Made by a program: the position numbers and the translations under genes. From Pseudomonas sp. NC02 (GTDB lineage: Bacteria > Pseudomonadota > Gammaproteobacteria > Pseudomonadales > Pseudomonadaceae): a DNA stretch of 64,000 nt. The stretch covers positions 6,138,001 to 6,202,000 of the forward strand of contig NZ_CP025624.1 of assembly GCF_002874965.1 (NCBI RefSeq), read 5' to 3'. Shown one piece after another: positions 2,162-58,646 of this stretch; positions within the stretch are counted from its first letter, which is position 1, and every line of letters starts with the position of its first letter. The notes beneath the pieces are model-generated. The model was not told the DNA's origin and did no database searches. It was given only the letters and a program-made list of their open reading frames with translations.

Positions 2162-3298
2162 TTATACGCTCGCTGATGGCAGAGGGATGGCAGTGACTCT
2201 CCAGTCATCGCCAACAGCGCGCATTTCAGTGATCTTGAGTTGGGGGGCGTCGGCCAGTTTCTCAAGCGGCCAGTCCAGCAAAGGCCGGGCGGCAGAGCCA
2301 AGAAACTTGCCGGCGACGAATATCACGTACTCGTCCACCAGCCCTTGCTGGGCGAAGGCACCCGCCAGGCTTGGGCCGGCTTCCACCAACACTTCGTTGA
2401 CACCACGGGCCGCCAGGGCCACCAGCGCGGAACGCAGGTCGACCTGGCCGTCGACACCCGGCACCACCAGGCACTCGGGGCCTGTGGGGTACTGGTTGTC
2501 CGGCGTCACGCAGGTGATGACCAGCGCGGGGCCAGCCTTGAAGAACGGCGCATTCAGCGGCACCCGCAGGCGGCCGTCGATCAGCACACGCAGCGGCGGA
2601 CGGGACATCGCCAGGGCGGTGGTTTCTTCATCCAGGCCCAGTTCGGCGGCGCGCACGGTCAGGCGAGCACCATCGGCCAGCACCGTGTCGGCGCCGGTCA
2701 GCACCACACTGGCCTGGGCACGCAGGCGCTGCACAGCGGCACGGGCGGCCGGGCCGGTGATCCATTGGCTTTCGCCGTTGGCCATCGCGGTGCGACCGTC
2801 CAGGCTCATGGCCAACTTGACCCGCACAAACGGCAGGCCATGCTCCATGCGCTTGAGAAAGCCCGGGTTAAGCGCCCGCGCTTCGTTTTCCAGCAAGCCG
2901 CTGTGGGTCTCGATCCCGGCCTGGGCCAGGCGGCGCATGCCACGCCCGGCGACTTCCGGGTTCGGGTCCTGCATTGCCGCAACCACACGGGCCAGGCCGG
3001 CATTCACCAAGGCATCGGCGCAGGGCGGTGTGTGCCCGTGGTGGCTGCACGGTTCAAGGGTCACGTAGGCCGTGGCGCCCCGGGCTTTGTCGCCCGCTGC
3101 CCGCAGGGCATGGACTTCCGCATGGGGTTCGCCGGTGCGCACGTGCCAGCCTTCGCCGACAACCTGCCCGTCACGCACGATCACGCAGCCAACCCGGGGG
3201 TTGGGGTGGGTGGTGTACAGGCCCTTGCGCGCCAATTCCAGGGCACGGGCCATGTAATGGGCGTCGAGTACCGCTTGTTCTGCCGAAGGTGGGTTCAT
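2162..3298 (-). CDS. ribD: bifunctional diaminohydroxyphosphoribosylaminopyrimidine deaminase / 5-amino-6-(5-phosphoribosylamino)uracil reductase
   Basis: 378 aa, usual length. The N-terminal cytidine-deaminase-like domain has the zinc site H59-A-E61 and C84...C93 ([11 protein letters not shown]). The C-terminal reductase domain (about 150-370) belongs to the RibD/dihydrofolate-reductase-like fold. It performs the second and third steps of the pyrimidine branch of riboflavin synthesis. Its ATG overlaps the TGA of nrdR (ATGA), implying translational coupling. Confidence 0.96.
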
Positions 3299-4363: not shown

Positions 4364-5013
4364 CGCCACCGCTGGGCCTGCAACGCGCACTGAGCGAACT
4401 GATCGGCGACGCCAAACTGGTGCCCTGCCCGCTGCCGGGCACCGAGTTGTCGCTGTGGTTACTGGACGCCGACAACATGGACCGCGCCTTCAGCCCCGAA
4501 GAAACCCGGCGCATCCTGCATGAGCCGCCGTACTGGAGCTTTTGCTGGGCCAGTGGCCTGGCGCTGGCGCGATACCTGGCGGCCAACCCCGAGTGGGTCG
4601 CGGGTAAGCGGGTGCTGGATTTCGGCGCAGGTTCGGGTGTTGCCGGGATTGCCGCGGTAAAGGCCGGAGCGCTGGAAGTGGTGGCGTGCGACCTGGATCC
4701 GCTGGCCCTGGCTGCCTGCCGGGCGAATGCCGAACTCAACGGCGTAACACTGGGCTATTCAGAAGACTTCTTCACCGAAGCCGACCGGTTTGACCTGATC
4801 CTGGTCGCCGATGTGCTGTACGACCGGGCGAACCTGCCGCTGCTGGATCAATTCCTGACACGCGGCCGCGAAGCGCTGGTCGCCGATTCCCGGGTTCGGG
4901 ACTTCCAGCACCCGGAGTATCAGCGCCTGGGTATCCTCGACGCCCTGACACTGCCCGACCTGGCCGAGCCGTGGGAGTTTCGCAAGGTGAGCCTGTACCA
5001 TTCGCGGCGATAG
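4360..5013 (+). CDS. class I SAM-dependent methyltransferase (ETFB/NNMT-type lysine methyltransferase-like)
   Basis: 217 aa. The Rossmann motif I VLDFGAGSGVAG is near residue 85, an acidic SAM ribose-binding segment (VACDLDP) follows, and LILVADVLYD is the motif IV region. The pattern resembles the small protein-lysine methyltransferases of the METTL20/ETFB group. The substrate is unknown. Start overlaps the lipoprotein stop by four bases (ATGA), so the two are co-translated. Confidence 0.8.
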   Translation: MTPPLGLQRALSELIGDAKLVPCPLPGTELSLWLLDADNMDRAFSPEETRRILHEPPYWSFCWASGLALARYLAANPEWVAGKRVLDFGAGSGVAGIAAVKAGALEVVACDLDPLALAACRANAELNGVTLGYSEDFFTEADRFDLILVADVLYDRANLPLLDQFLTRGREALVADSRVRDFQHPEYQRLGILDALTLPDLAEPWEFRKVSLYHSRR

Positions 5014-5166
5014 TCGCGCCTATCAAACCCGCAAATCTCCAGTAACAGATGGGCTAAGACAGTCTTCAGCGTAGCGTGGAAAATGGCCGCCTCTCGCACG
5101 CTACCTGGACGACCAAACGGTATGCCAACCCCCCGATTTGCATCCGTCGCCTCTTGCTCAAAAAGC

Positions 5167-5195
5167 TTGCAAACGTTACCGCTACTGCCTAATCT
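5167..5195 (+). promoter_or_regulatory. putative sigma70 promoter of the small RNA unit ahead of the Abi gene
   Basis: TTGCAA at 5168-5173, a 17-base spacer and TAATCT at 5191-5196 give a moderate -35/-10 pair (bounds approximate to one base). It would start a transcript near 5202, only about 60 bases before a terminator. Both boxes are imperfect, so this is a prediction. Confidence 0.4.
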
Positions 5196-5199
5196 TTGC

Positions 5200-5264
5200 C
5201 GCAATACACCCGCCATGCCTCTGGTCGCGCAAGTGACTAAGCACAAATTGTGCGGGTTTTTTAT
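5200..5264 (+). ncRNA. putative small structured RNA upstream of the Abi HEPN gene
   Basis: A compact unit in the 269-base gap between the methyltransferase gene and the abi gene. It has an upstream promoter-like pair, about 65 transcribed bases, and a terminator-like end (inverted repeat GCACAA-A-TTGTGC at 5241-5253, then GGGTTTTTT). ACCCGC at 5208-5213 can pair with GCGGGT at 5252-5257, competing with the terminator stem and allowing a pseudoknot-like fold. The layout (short RNA with a terminator, then a HEPN toxin gene) fits RNA antitoxin arrangements. No homology search was possible. Confidence 0.45.
5241..5262 (+). terminator. terminator-like hairpin directly before the abi start
   Basis: Perfect 6-base inverted repeat GCACAA/TTGTGC around one A, then GGG and six T residues (5257-5262). 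The short loop means 4-5 stem pairs would really form. The T tract ends only 20 bases before the abi ATG, so read-through or attenuation would control the toxin gene. Confidence 0.6.
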
Positions 5265-5282
5265 GCCTGGCGTTTTTTGGGC

Positions 5283-6284
5283 ATGAGAACGTTCGACAAA
5301 CCTGCCATTGATGTTCCCTCCCAGATAGAACTGCTCAAACAACGTGGCTTGCTCATTCAAGATGAAGCCCGTGCGCAGTGTTTCTTGCAGTCCGTCAGTT
5401 TTTTCCGATTGAGCCCCTACATGCGCCCTTTTCAGCAATCGGGGGATGTCGATCATCGATTTCGCGATGGCACAGGTTTTCGTCAGTTAACTCGACTCTA
5501 CGACTTTGACCGCAGGCTTCGATTGTTGAGCATGGATGCCATTGAACGCGTGGAAATAGCGACCCGCTCGATGATCAGTAACCATATGGGGCCCAACTAT
5601 GGCAGCCATTGGTATACCGATATCGGAATGTTTCAACAGGCATTTGACCACCAACGCCTACTCGCAACATTGCAGTCCAAGCAATGTGCCGCTATCCGAG
5701 ACTATGAGCGCGAATGCCTGCGAATAGATCGGTTGCAAGCCGAAAGCGGTCGCAAAGCGCATCTCAAACGCCAGAGAGCAAAAGAGAGTTACGCCCGACA
5801 CTACCCCACCACCTACGACCAACCACCACTCATGCCCGGCTGGGCAATGCTGGAAGAACTCACACTCGGCGACCTGTCCCATCTCTACAAAGGCTTGGCC
5901 AGGGATTCAGACAAGAAGGCTATCGCCAGACGCCTGGAACTCCCCGCCCCTTTGATGCAGTCCTGGCTGCACACCTTGACCACTATTCGTAACATCTGCG
6001 CACACCATGCGCGAATGTGGAATCGAGAATTGGGCATTCGCCCAGAACTGCCCAAAAAAGCCAACTTTCCGTGGCCCAGGCACCTTATTCATCCGGGCAC
6101 TCATGCCCGTATGTTCGCAGCACTCTGCATCCTTAATCACCTAATGCATAAAGTGTGTCCACACGCTCAGTGGGACCGGCGCCTGCGTCAACTGACTGAG
6201 GAATTTCCCGATGTCAGCCTCAAAGCGATGGGTTTTCCTCAAGACTGGTACCAGGACCCTTTCTGGCATCCTGTACGCGCTTAA
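5283..6284 (+). CDS. Abi family (Abi_2/AbiF-like) HEPN protein, probable abortive-infection RNase
   Basis: 333 aa. The N terminus (KPAIDVPSQIELLKQRGL, then FLQSVSFFRLSPYMRPF) is the Abi_2 signature. A HEPN Rx4H motif is visible at R236-N-I-C-A-H241, followed by H242 and W246, matching the RNase active site of HEPN proteins. Family members act in phage-triggered growth arrest. The ATG at 5283 is preferred over the upstream-extended frame (5250), which would run through the terminator T tract; no good Shine-Dalgarno precedes it. One sampled line is about 53% GC, lower than its neighbours. It separates genes that are adjacent in related genomes, suggesting insertion. Confidence 0.85.
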   Translation: MRTFDKPAIDVPSQIELLKQRGLLIQDEARAQCFLQSVSFFRLSPYMRPFQQSGDVDHRFRDGTGFRQLTRLYDFDRRLRLLSMDAIERVEIATRSMISNHMGPNYGSHWYTDIGMFQQAFDHQRLLATLQSKQCAAIRDYERECLRIDRLQAESGRKAHLKRQRAKESYARHYPTTYDQPPLMPGWAMLEELTLGDLSHLYKGLARDSDKKAIARRLELPAPLMQSWLHTLTTIRNICAHHARMWNRELGIRPELPKKANFPWPRHLIHPGTHARMFAALCILNHLMHKVCPHAQWDRRLRQLTEEFPDVSLKAMGFPQDWYQDPFWHPVRA

Positions 6285-6356
6285 TCGCGGCATAGCTTCC
6301 GGTCGCCTCCTCCAGTCTTTATAGTTGCCCCATTCCTGCTTTCTTCGAGATTCCCC

Positions 6357-7229
6357 ATGAGTGAGCCCACGCCGTACATCTTCGATGCCACCACCGCCAC
6401 CTTCGATCAGGCGGTGATCCAGAACTCCTTCGAAAAACCCGTGCTGGTGGATTTCTGGGCCGAGTGGTGCGCGCCGTGCAAGGCGTTGATGCCGATGCTC
6501 GCGCAGATTGCCGAGAGTTATCAGGGTGAGTTGCTGCTGGCCAAGGTCGATTGCGATGCCGAGCCGGACGTGGTCTCGCGCTTTGGCATTCGCAGCCTGC
6601 CGACCGTGGTGCTGTTCAAGGATGGCCAGCCAGTGGATGGGTTTGCCGGTGCGCAGCCTGAATCCGCCGTGCGCGCGATGCTGGAGCCCCATGTGCAGAT
6701 GCCACCACCGGCGGCTGCCGATCCACTGGAGCAGGCCCAGGCGCTGTTTGCCGAAGGCCGTATCACCGACGCCGAGGCCGTGCTGGTCACCCTGCTTGGC
6801 GAAGACAACACCAACGCCGCCGCGCTGATCCTGTACGCACGCTGCCTGGCCGAGCGCGGTGAACTGGGCGAAGCGCAAACCGTGCTCGACGCCGTCAAGA
6901 GCGATGATCACAAGGCCGCACTGGCCGGCGCCAAGGCGCAGATCACTTTCCTGCGCCAGGCCGCCGACCTGCCGGACGCCGCAGACCTGAAAGCCCGCCT
7001 GGCGCAAAACCCGCAGGATGACGAGGCGGTGTATCAACTGGCCGTGCAACAACTGGCGCGCCAGCAATACGACGCCGCGCTGGATGGCTTACTCAAGCTG
7101 TTCATCCGCAACCGCAGCTACAGCGAGGGCCTGCCCCACAAGACGCTGTTGCAGGTGTTCGAACTGCTCGGCAACGATCACCCGCTGGTCACCGTGTACC
7201 GCCGCAAGCTGTTCGCCGCGCTGTATTAA
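6357..7229 (+). CDS. cnoX: thioredoxin-TPR co-chaperone CnoX (YbbN)
   Basis: 290 aa. A thioredoxin domain (1-110) carries the active site W37-CAPC, and the C-terminal half (about 120-290) is made of TPR-like helices. This is the CnoX/YbbN architecture: a holdase that protects clients from oxidation and hands them to GroEL. E. coli CnoX lacks the two-cysteine site; here both cysteines (C38, C41) are present, so thiol-disulfide exchange is possible. Own ATG at 6357, 72 bases after the abi gene. Confidence 0.9.
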   Translation: MSEPTPYIFDATTATFDQAVIQNSFEKPVLVDFWAEWCAPCKALMPMLAQIAESYQGELLLAKVDCDAEPDVVSRFGIRSLPTVVLFKDGQPVDGFAGAQPESAVRAMLEPHVQMPPPAAADPLEQAQALFAEGRITDAEAVLVTLLGEDNTNAAALILYARCLAERGELGEAQTVLDAVKSDDHKAALAGAKAQITFLRQAADLPDAADLKARLAQNPQDDEAVYQLAVQQLARQQYDAALDGLLKLFIRNRSYSEGLPHKTLLQVFELLGNDHPLVTVYRRKLFAALY

Positions 7230-42776: not shown

Positions 42777-43133
42777 TTACTTGCGGATCGGCTTACGCGG
42801 ACCTTTACGGGTACGCGCGTTAGTCTTGGTACGCTGACCGCGTACTGGAAGACCACGACGATGACGCAGACCACGGTAGCAACCGAGGTCCATCAAACGC
42901 TTGATTTTCATGTTGATTTCGCGACGCAGGTCACCTTCAGTGGTGAACTTCGCCACTTCGCCACGCAACAGCTCAATCTGCTCGTCGCTCAGATCCTTGA
43001 TCTTTGCGGCTGGGTTTACCCCAGTATCTGCGCAAATTTTCTGCGCAGTAGTGCGACCAACACCATAGATGTAGGTCAGCGAGATAACAGTGTGCTTGTT
43101 ATCTGGAATGTTAACGCCTGCAATACGGGCCAT
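42777..43133 (-). CDS. rpsM: 30S ribosomal protein S13
   Basis: 118 aa. [20 protein letters not shown] start and basic tail [20 protein letters not shown]. Head protein that contacts the P-site tRNA and L5. First gene behind the alpha promoter. Confidence 0.98.
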
Positions 43134-43192
43134 TCAGTGGGACTCCAATTGACAGCTACCTACGCCCCGGAAGCCAAGAAATAGGGCGCGAG

Positions 43193-43221
43193 ATAATATC
43201 GCTGTAATAACAAATAATCAA
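43193..43221 (-). promoter_or_regulatory. sigma70-type promoter of the alpha block (rpsM-rplQ)
   Basis: Minus strand TTGATT (43216-43221), 17-base spacer, TATTAT (43193-43198). Predicted start near 43186 gives a leader of about 50 bases before rpsM. Spacing is optimal and both boxes are close to consensus. Confidence 0.7.
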
Positions 43222-58058: not shown

Positions 58059-58430
58059 CTACTTAGGCTTCTTGGTACCGTACTTCGAACGACCCTGGTT
58101 ACGACCTTTAACGCCGGAAGTATCCAAGGAGCCGCGTACGGTGTGGTAACGAACACCTGGCAAGTCTTTTACACGACCGCCGCGGATCAGTACCACGCTG
58201 TGCTCTTGCAGGTTGTGACCTTCACCGCCGATGTACGAGGAAACCTCGAAACCGTTGGTCAGGCGCACACGGCATACTTTACGCAGTGCCGAGTTAGGTT
58301 TTTTCGGCGTAGTGGTATACACGCGAGTGCATACGCCACGACGTTGCGGGCAGTTCTGCAGCGCAGGCACGTCGGATTTCTCGACGATACGCTTACGCGG
58401 CTGACGTACCAGCTGGTTGATAGTTGCCAT
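58059..58430 (-). CDS. rpsL: 30S ribosomal protein S12
   Basis: 123 aa. [20 protein letters not shown] start. K43 (TTPKKPNSA) and K88 (GGRVKDLPG), the classical streptomycin-resistance positions, are both lysine, so the wild-type (sensitive) state is predicted. The conserved PNSA loop aspartate D89 (methylthiolated in E. coli) is present. First gene of the str block. Confidence 0.98.
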
Positions 58431-58484
58431 CTACTAGCTCCACTGTTGTCTTGCGACGCTATTGTCTTGCAAGAAAAGCAAAAT

Positions 58485-58504
58485 GGCAGGAACGAATTCC
58501 CGCC
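58485..58504 (-). other. UUCG-capped hairpin in the rpsL leader
   Basis: On the minus strand GGCGGGAA-TTCG-TTCCTGCC, an eight-pair stem (one G-U) with a very stable UUCG tetraloop, followed by ATTTTGCTTTTC. It lies downstream of the promoter and 54 bases before the rpsL ATG. Two copies of GCAAGACAA follow it. Confidence 0.7.
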
Positions 58505-58521
58505 AAATTTAGGGGTACAAG

Positions 58522-58550
58522 AGTCTAAAGAGGATCTTGTCCCCAGTCAA
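58522..58550 (-). promoter_or_regulatory. str block promoter (rpsL-rpsG-fusA-tuf)
   Basis: Minus strand TTGACT (58545-58550), 17-base spacer, TAGACT (58522-58527). Predicted start near 58515 gives a leader of about 85 bases. The upstream part of the rpoC-rpsL gap (58551-58646) shows no canonical terminator, so read-through from rpoC may also feed these genes. Confidence 0.75.
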
Positions 58551-58646
58551 GGCAAGGCCCCGACCTCCCCTTCCATCGAACCGGGACAAATCTGTCTCGA
58601 TCCGACGAACGGGGCTGCCAGGGCCCGGTCTTATTTACCGCAGAAC

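Follow-up and report, generated by a model that had tools for sequence, protein, structure and literature searches.

The window analysed here is a 64,000-nucleotide (nt) stretch of the Pseudomonas sp. NC02 genome (contig NZ_CP025624.1, positions 6,138,001 to 6,202,000, forward strand). It raises the question of whether an Abi_2 gene near its start forms a single unit with the short structured RNA predicted directly upstream. A first-pass annotation had read the pair as an abortive infection system with an RNA antitoxin. That reading is supported: the RNA resembles the abiF family, and in C. difficile the RNA antitoxin of AbiFCd, RCd22, carries the abiF motif (PMC12373285). The locus is very probably a defence module of the AbiF kind, a type III-like toxin-antitoxin pair in which a HEPN RNase toxin is inactivated by its own co-transcribed abiF RNA. 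The features concerned, in window coordinates, are the following.

5014-6356, plus strand: gap that holds the cassette, flanked by a methyltransferase gene and cnoX (43-192 bp in 10/12 genus loci)
5167-5172, plus strand: predicted -35 element TTGCAA of the RNA/abiF promoter, from the conservation of 5167-5174
5190-5195, plus strand: predicted -10 element TAATCT, 17 nt after the -35, from the conservation of 5190-5196
5202-5262, plus strand: predicted abiF-type RNA of about 60 nt, its 5' end placed from the -10 element and its 3' end from the T tract
5208-5214, plus strand: outer helix, 5' arm; 5208-5213 pairs with 5252-5257 and C5214 with G5250, with U5251 bulged
5216-5218, plus strand: inner helix, 5' arm UGC, pairing with GCA at 5241-5243 (UA in 17 and AU in 5 of 22 sequences)
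5222-5239, plus strand: apical hairpin, 5222-5228 with 5233-5239 around a GCAA loop; double-sided changes in 5/7 pairs
5244-5249, plus strand: CAAAUU bulge, single-stranded and better conserved than any other unpaired part (CAAAT in 25/25)
5250-5257, plus strand: outer helix, 3' arm (G5250, bulged U5251, 5252-5257)
5257-5262, plus strand: T6 tract, predicted intrinsic terminator together with the outer stem; T columns conserved
5283-6284, plus strand: abiF/Abi_2 toxin gene, an open reading frame (ORF) of 333 aa with Pfam, PADLOC and 8vz6 matches
5988-6005, plus strand: HEPN RNase motif RNICAH (R236, H241), aligned with 8vz6

The toxin gene

The 333-aa product matched the Abi_2 profile PF07751 (E 3.1e-51; 174.7 bits against a curated cut-off of 25.6) and the PADLOC AbiD model (E 2.2e-66), while a search against NCBIfam gave no match. 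One solved relative was found by sequence, a chain of PDB entry 8vz6 labelled 'Abi family protein' (E 5.4e-49, in two stretches), to which the window protein is homologous over most of its length; a review names this entry as the complex of PbAbiF with its non-coding RNA (PMC12737573). Residues 236-241 (RNICAH) align with R210 and H215 of the 8vz6 chain, so that the Abi_2 protein with an Rx4H HEPN motif described in the first-pass annotation is borne out. In an alignment of 27 proteins, which includes the window protein and leaves out five short frames, the motif arginine is present in all 27 and the histidine in 26. A predicted HEPN RNase toxin is the best explanation of this product. The NC02 genome (one contig, 6.89 Mb) contains a single Abi_2 gene and a single place that matches the RNA core pattern.

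The upstream RNA

A permissive Rfam scan of 4900-6500 placed the abiF RNA family, RF03085, at 5209-5257 with 33.1 bits (E 0.0011, computed over 4227 families in 1601 bases). The alignment covers the model from its first to its last position (1-37), no non-standard pair is marked, and the outer stem, inner GC stem and CAAAU bulge follow one another in the consensus order; the apical insert is 18, against 7 in the Rfam alignment. Folding alone, by minimum free energy (MFE) or centroid, gave the same structure plus the apical helix, three helices in all, and additionally paired A5215 with U5249. The MFE is -22.1 kcal/mol (z -2.72), a value reached by 2 of 200 shuffles. Because its score lies under the gathering cut-off of the family, we call the RNA abiF-type and not a formal member of RF03085; the low score can be attributed to an apical helix longer than the consensus. 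The complementarity of ACCCGC (5208-5213) and GCGGGT (5252-5257) reported earlier is exact. The pseudoknot or switch proposed from it was rejected, since MFE, centroid and covariation all lead to a single nested hairpin whose outer stem is formed by these two segments. According to the review PMC12737573, the AbiF RNase is inhibited by a bulge of PbAbiFr.

A homologue search yielded 31 loci carrying Abi_2 relatives, and the RNA element lies upstream on the same strand in 24 of them, in addition to the window. The distance from motif to ATG is 74 nt in all 19 gapless Pseudomonas loci, in which 35/37 positions of the RNA cores (5208-5222 and 5241-5262) are invariant. In the apical helix 4/18 positions are invariant, with the variation falling in compensating pairs. 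Covariation was evaluated in an alignment of 25 gammaproteobacterial sequences (A1), 22 of them distinct. Across the 22, 98.4% of cells are standard pairs and 6/17 pairs have changed on both sides, giving 24 double-sided cells against a shuffle mean of 5.0, with none of 500 shuffles equally high. A1 beat 500/500 shuffles on four of five covariation measures and 498/500 on the fifth, and sliding the partner by 1-3 columns lowered pairing to 22-44%. All seven outer pairs are invariant in A1, where changes are confined to the inner and apical helices; compensatory changes of the outer helix occur in phage relatives and also, by eye, in an Acinetobacter plasmid copy. The stretch 5200-5264, singled out in the first-pass annotation, is thus conserved and covarying beside Abi_2 genes.

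A variable apical part could also suggest a Cas13-like, RNA-guided RNase with that part as the guide, given that it is the most variable segment and that the HEPN domains of AbiD/F are akin to those of Cas13 (PMC12165695). This is extremely improbable. The apical variation consists of compensating base pairs (5/7 pairs), which indicates a helix and not an exposed guide; no variable single-stranded guide was found in the window RNA; and AbiF is described as having no RNA-targeting specificity in the review PMC12948488.

Predicted promoter and terminator, and the start codon

Among the 19 gapless Pseudomonas loci, 7/8 bases of the -35 stretch (5167-5174) and 4/7 bases of the -10 stretch (5190-5196) are invariant, compared with 0/78 far upstream. 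Matches of at least 5/6 to TATAAT were found upstream in 21/51 toxin-linked loci versus 6/255 control windows, and 19 of the 21 lie at the window's own distance, 14 nt before CCGCC. The conserved elements would fit an order of promoter, RNA, terminator and toxin, although a consensus sigma-70 scan found no site; the candidate promoter pair annotated earlier at 5168-5196 has its elements at 5167-5172 and 5190-5195. Five of the six T columns of the T6 tract are invariant in the 25-sequence alignment and the sixth is at least 90% conserved; the tract ends 20 bases before the ATG, as had been noted. As for the hairpin of the terminator, it is the outer stem that leads into T6. The small GCACAAATTGTGC hairpin is incompatible with the three-helix fold and probably incidental; as a terminator it was retained as no more than an incidental alternative, there being 3 terminator-like sites versus 2.4 in shuffles. 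A hairpin over the abiF start codon is also possible (AUGCC/GGCAU, 5263-5268 with 5279-5284). This pairing is kept in 99/114 cells (61 at most when slid) with zero double-sided changes, for which reason it is left unproven and is not claimed.

The position of T6, 20 nt ahead of the ATG, would also suit an RNA that is only a cis-acting leader, an attenuator or terminator limiting abiF transcription with no antitoxin activity in trans. The start-codon pairing, unproven as it is, would agree with this, and RCd22 does repress abiF in cis (PMC12373285). We nevertheless regard a leader alone as unlikely. A plain attenuator has no need of an invariant unpaired CAAAU bulge, the start-codon hairpin lacks double-sided change, and the phage hairpins described below have no abiF gene to regulate. 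In addition, RCd22 acts in trans and binds AbiF, as reported in PMC12373285.

Genomic context and distribution in the genus

The cassette was annotated as an insertion between the methyltransferase gene and cnoX, and the comparison bears this out. Twelve genus loci were fetched with the methyltransferase end, the NC02 locus included. Ten have a short gap to cnoX (43-192 bp) and two bear the cassette, with gaps of 1346 or 1340 bp; the second of these, L185, shares its contig with L003. RNA and gene together fill the insert. Of 61 homologue loci (31 Abi_2 homologues plus 30 places matching the RNA pattern), tblastn placed the methyltransferase gene immediately ahead of the cassette in 23, of which 18 are distinct, since five contigs are counted twice.

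Three distinct loci combine a shortened toxin frame with an intact RNA core (L022, 242 aa; L027, 171 aa, of which L167 is a duplicate; and L164), as would follow if loss of the RNA could not come before that of the toxin. These loci are syntenic with the window and could suggest that it, too, is a degraded relic, an inactive AbiF gene with leftover RNA. In the window, however, nothing interrupts the full-length frame, which still encodes the HEPN motif, and the RNA is intact as well; a relic is very unlikely.

Across 398 genus genomes, the RNA core pattern occurred in 51 (52 places; 0 for the reversed pattern) and Abi_2 in 99. An Abi_2 gene or fragment follows on the same strand within 355 bp at 36 of the 52 RNA places (within 200 bp at 34), leaving 16 without. 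Six of the 30 fetched places (L145, L146, L150, L152, L155 and L162) carry the Pseudomonas RNA with no AbiF trace by tblastn within 1.5 kb.

Proposed function and comparison with known systems

The gene, its HEPN motif, the covarying RNA, the promoter-like pair, the synteny and the empty site are established here. RNA-protein binding, neutralization, RNase activity and termination with read-through are carried over from relatives, and from these we would expect the module to work as follows. The promoter at 5167-5195 would produce an abiF RNA of about 60 nt, folded as the three-helix hairpin; transcription would usually stop at T6 (5257-5262), with occasional read-through giving abiF mRNA. The RNA would bind the AbiF HEPN dimer near the RxxxxH groove, where we infer contacts through conserved unpaired nucleotides, those of the CU(C/A) loop and of the CAAAU bulge, and would keep the RNase off. 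For the trigger and for an antiphage role in NC02 we likewise rely on inference: by analogy with type III systems generally, a phage that shuts off host transcription would cause the short-lived RNA to be lost first, and the freed AbiF would then cut single-stranded RNA and arrest the cell.

Several observations weigh against this reading. The window RNA does not reach the RF03085 gathering cut-off of 37 bits, and a gathering-level Rfam scan of the window returned only two ribosomal-protein leaders and no abiF RNA. The consensus sigma-70 scan found no site, and by eye there is no clear Shine-Dalgarno sequence before the ATG. An RF03085 search of the NC02 genome returned nothing, a result made uninformative by the equal silence of 14 control genomes. 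The element is missing from 7 of the 31 homologue loci: L021, which has a short frame, the Bacteroidota loci L024-L026, L028 and L030, and L029. Finally, Abi_2 was found in 99 genomes, versus 36 RNA places that adjoin one. Most genus Abi_2 genes are without an exactly matching RNA pattern beside them, and many must therefore have another RNA or none.

In the five Bacteroidota AbiF loci, another hairpin-like stretch was seen by eye before the gene, conserved as CCACCACGC...AGGGTGG in L024-L026 and L030; Rfam did not recognize it in L024-L026 and L028, which were scanned permissively, or in L030, scanned at gathering level. L030, a Prevotella metagenome-assembled genome, also carries a short-loop abiF RNA (50 bits, 2367-2402; ORF 2218-3129, plus strand) directly before a gene that by eye is RhuM-like and not abiF, which may point to other partners. 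The two leaders returned by the window scan, rpsL_pseudo and Alpha_RBS, are ordinary ribosomal-protein leaders at 58430-58565 and 43101-43196, both on the minus strand.

The window locus is another AbiF-RNA pair of an already known system type. It shares a homologous toxin and the RxxxxH motif with PbAbiF-AbiFr and AbiFCd-RCd22. With RF03085 systems it has in common the upstream same-strand hairpin RNA, the outer stem, the inner GC stem, the CAAAU bulge and a predicted terminator before the gene; it differs in its longer apical helix and its chromosomal site between housekeeping genes. In ToxIN, CptIN and TenpIN, an RNase toxin is likewise preceded by its RNA antitoxin and a terminator with read-through, but the toxin fold is unrelated to HEPN and the antitoxin consists of tandem pseudoknot repeats, as opposed to the HEPN toxin and one nested hairpin of the window. 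According to PMC12373285, a single promoter of AbiFCd-RCd22 gives an RNA that is terminated and, less often, a read-through mRNA, RCd22 needs its stems to neutralize the protein, which it does both in cis and in trans, and AbiFCd toxicity needs the R and the H of the motif; RCd22 has two motifs, whereas the window RNA is a single hairpin. AbiD1 of Lactococcus lactis also belongs to the Abi_2 superfamily; its 5' region is structured, and a short upstream transcript ends prematurely. It differs in being described, in PMC12373285, as under translational control that a phage protein activates, with no mention there of an RNA antitoxin.

Orphan RNAs in viral contigs

The RNA core was found in at least 221 viral contigs, mostly without AbiF, in two sets. 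For set 1, a strict core pattern matched 13 IMG/VR contigs, and relaxing it gave 102 that include these 13, with 0 for the reversed control. Abi_2 (E <= 0.001) was present in 9 of the 102 whole records (2/13, 4/50 and 3/39), and in 10 of the 102 loci tblastn with the homologues detected AbiF immediately downstream of the RNA. The remaining 92 represent 59 distinct RNAs and include four loci that cannot be judged, as they end within 60 nt (L053, L072, L113) or 120 nt (L096) of the RNA; L072 visibly starts an AbiF frame. At positions left free by the pattern, the inner pair is complementary in 59/59 of these RNAs (45 AU, 14 UA) and the next outer pair in 56/59 (CG 42, UA 11, GC 2, GU 1). In orphan and toxin-linked RNAs alike, shuffled apical parts fold less well than the real ones (mean z -2.1 for 40 and -2.5 for 38). 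In L046, L050, L081, L107, L137 and their relatives, the flanks resemble those of Pseudomonas phage PS-1 and the RNA core is common, while the apical arms are quite different.

Set 2 was obtained with a short-loop core pattern that leaves the outer stem unspecified (reversed control 0); its results, here and below, hold among the matches listed. They comprise 119 new loci with 118 usable places and 81 distinct RNAs. AbiF was detected by tblastn in 0/119 loci, with mostly gammaproteobacterial and Bacteroidota queries, and Abi_2 in 0/50 whole records searched. The inner pair is complementary in 81/81 RNAs (49 AU, 32 UA), and an outer stem of at least 6/7 pairs is formed in 78% of arm combinations within one RNA, in 30% of those between different RNAs and in 2% against random DNA. 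In the alignment of all 81 (A2), the covariation score is 0.474 versus 0.164 in shuffles and double-sided cells number 176 versus 57.4, neither equalled in 500 shuffles. Of the five measures, one, the count of pairs with double-sided change, does not exceed the shuffles (9 versus 8.1; 130/500 equally high).

A chance origin of the orphan cores was rejected, the reversed patterns having no viral match. That they are just phage terminators is disfavoured by the retention of unpaired letters in the core, although much of that core was fixed by the search patterns, and the replacement of CAAAU by CACUUU or CACUCU in phages PZL-Ah8, PT2 and CGphi29 counts against strict conservation. A promoter of their own for all orphans is unsupported: a good -10 was found in 16/67 versus 16/330 control windows, pointing to one in some orphans only.

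Named phages

BLAST with the orphan and window RNAs led to named phages, of which 15 regions were examined (including L137, L138 and L171-L181). RF03085 matched at E <= 0.5 in 13 of them, ten over the cut-off: Acj61 (58.0 bits), S-SZBM1 (55.7), S-CREM1 (52.2), CRP-143 (50.8), T7-Ah (50.7), PZL-Ah8 (50.1), CGphi29 (50.1), Redno2 (47.5), Lolly9 (45.3) and PT2 (44.4). VH-5 (35.1), Mimi (33.0) and PS-1 (30.6) remained under it; PS-1, with its own E of 0.12, was counted because it contains the exact set-1 core. The RNA of PS-1 is also carried by L129. None of the 13 named phage records with abiF RNA contains Abi_2. In 12 phages (PS-1 left out), outer arms pair at 6.75/8 positions with their own partner and 5.36 with a foreign one, a modest difference by itself.

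The phages that carry such RNAs without the toxin include T7-like and T4-like ones, both from obligately lytic groups, as well as cyano-, myco- and Pseudomonas phages. In T7-like Aeromonas phages the RNA lies between the connector and scaffold genes, and in CRP-143 between the scaffold and capsid genes. The abiF RNA of cyanophage S-CREM1 is already published, its function unconfirmed (PMC9964418; review PMC12197685), and three bacteriophage genomes in Rfam are mentioned with the motif (PMC9964418). In the literature searched, which does not extend to the 2017 motif paper and the 2025 Cell paper on AbiF, we found no other report of orphan or tRNA-linked abiF RNAs.

Two candidates, Vibrio phage p16 and Rhizobium phage RHEph01, were dropped as not being abiF, their matches lying inside ORFs and having no Rfam match. 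BLAST of the L035, L077 and window RNAs against phages gave mostly short pieces; in one such search 216 of 219 records were Vibrio and were dropped, those listed matching 18 bases. Further matches, by name, included most of 53 Mycobacterium records, one Stenotrophomonas record, Aeromonas PZL-Ah152, Erwinia Phobos, Hafnia Pocitis76, Bordetella PHB09 and a Streptococcus satellite phage.

Link to tRNA genes

In set 2, a tRNA gene lies within 300 nt of the RNA at 71 of 118 places (70 on the same strand), compared with 449 of 2360 random positions, and at 59/118 places the CAAAY core is followed, 5-20 nt further on, by the start of a same-strand tRNA. When each distinct RNA is counted once (84 under the key applied in the tRNA count), this holds for 36, with spacings of 10-16 nt from the core and 2-8 nt from the stem. 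Arg-TCT accounts for 25 of the 36, with other tRNAs in other groups; the 25 share a common upstream sequence and probably represent one phage group. In S-SZBM1, S-CREM1 and Lolly9, 4 nt separate the Rfam match from the tRNA. Several places scored as not adjacent contain, by eye, a tRNA-like sequence not called by ARAGORN. In set 1, only 5/92 are near a tRNA, versus 13/1840. Orphan hairpins ending a few nt before a phage tRNA were seen in L197, L199, L207, L212 and others, and hairpins before a tRNA gene in L176 (1002-1043), L177 (1002-1043) and L178 (996-1038).

A decoy reading of the orphan RNAs

Phages carry the antitoxin-type RNA mostly with the toxin absent (Abi_2 in 0/13 named, 9/102 set-1 and 0/50 set-2 records, of which the viral contigs may be fragments). 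On balance, we lean slightly towards the view that many unrelated phage groups, including obligately lytic ones, captured the AbiF antitoxin RNA without its toxin and produce it as a counter-defence decoy. This view is based on the retention of the RNA without the toxin, the same unpaired core, the strong compensatory change and the precedent of PhiTE. In one branch, RNase P cleavage at the tRNA 5' end would free the decoy together with tRNAs that possibly replace those cut by the toxin, as suggested by the position of the hairpin just before the tRNA. The nearest precedent, pseudo-ToxI of phage PhiTE, is a phage-encoded antitoxin RNA copy, a mimic of a type III antitoxin that enables escape from abortive infection (PMC3475682); the orphan abiF RNAs, as putative decoys, differ in being single hairpins, many of them directly before tRNA genes. 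As alternatives, the orphan RNAs might bind another phage or host protein, serve as a tRNA-processing element or regulate phage genes.

With the window, Pseudomonas gains an AbiF-RNA pair that is compact and intact and whose RNA falls under the Rfam cut-off owing to its longer apical helix. If the orphan RNAs are decoys, an RNase family thought to be ancestral to Cas13 would be countered by widespread RNA mimicry, and the role of abiF RNAs in phages would be open to simple co-expression testing.

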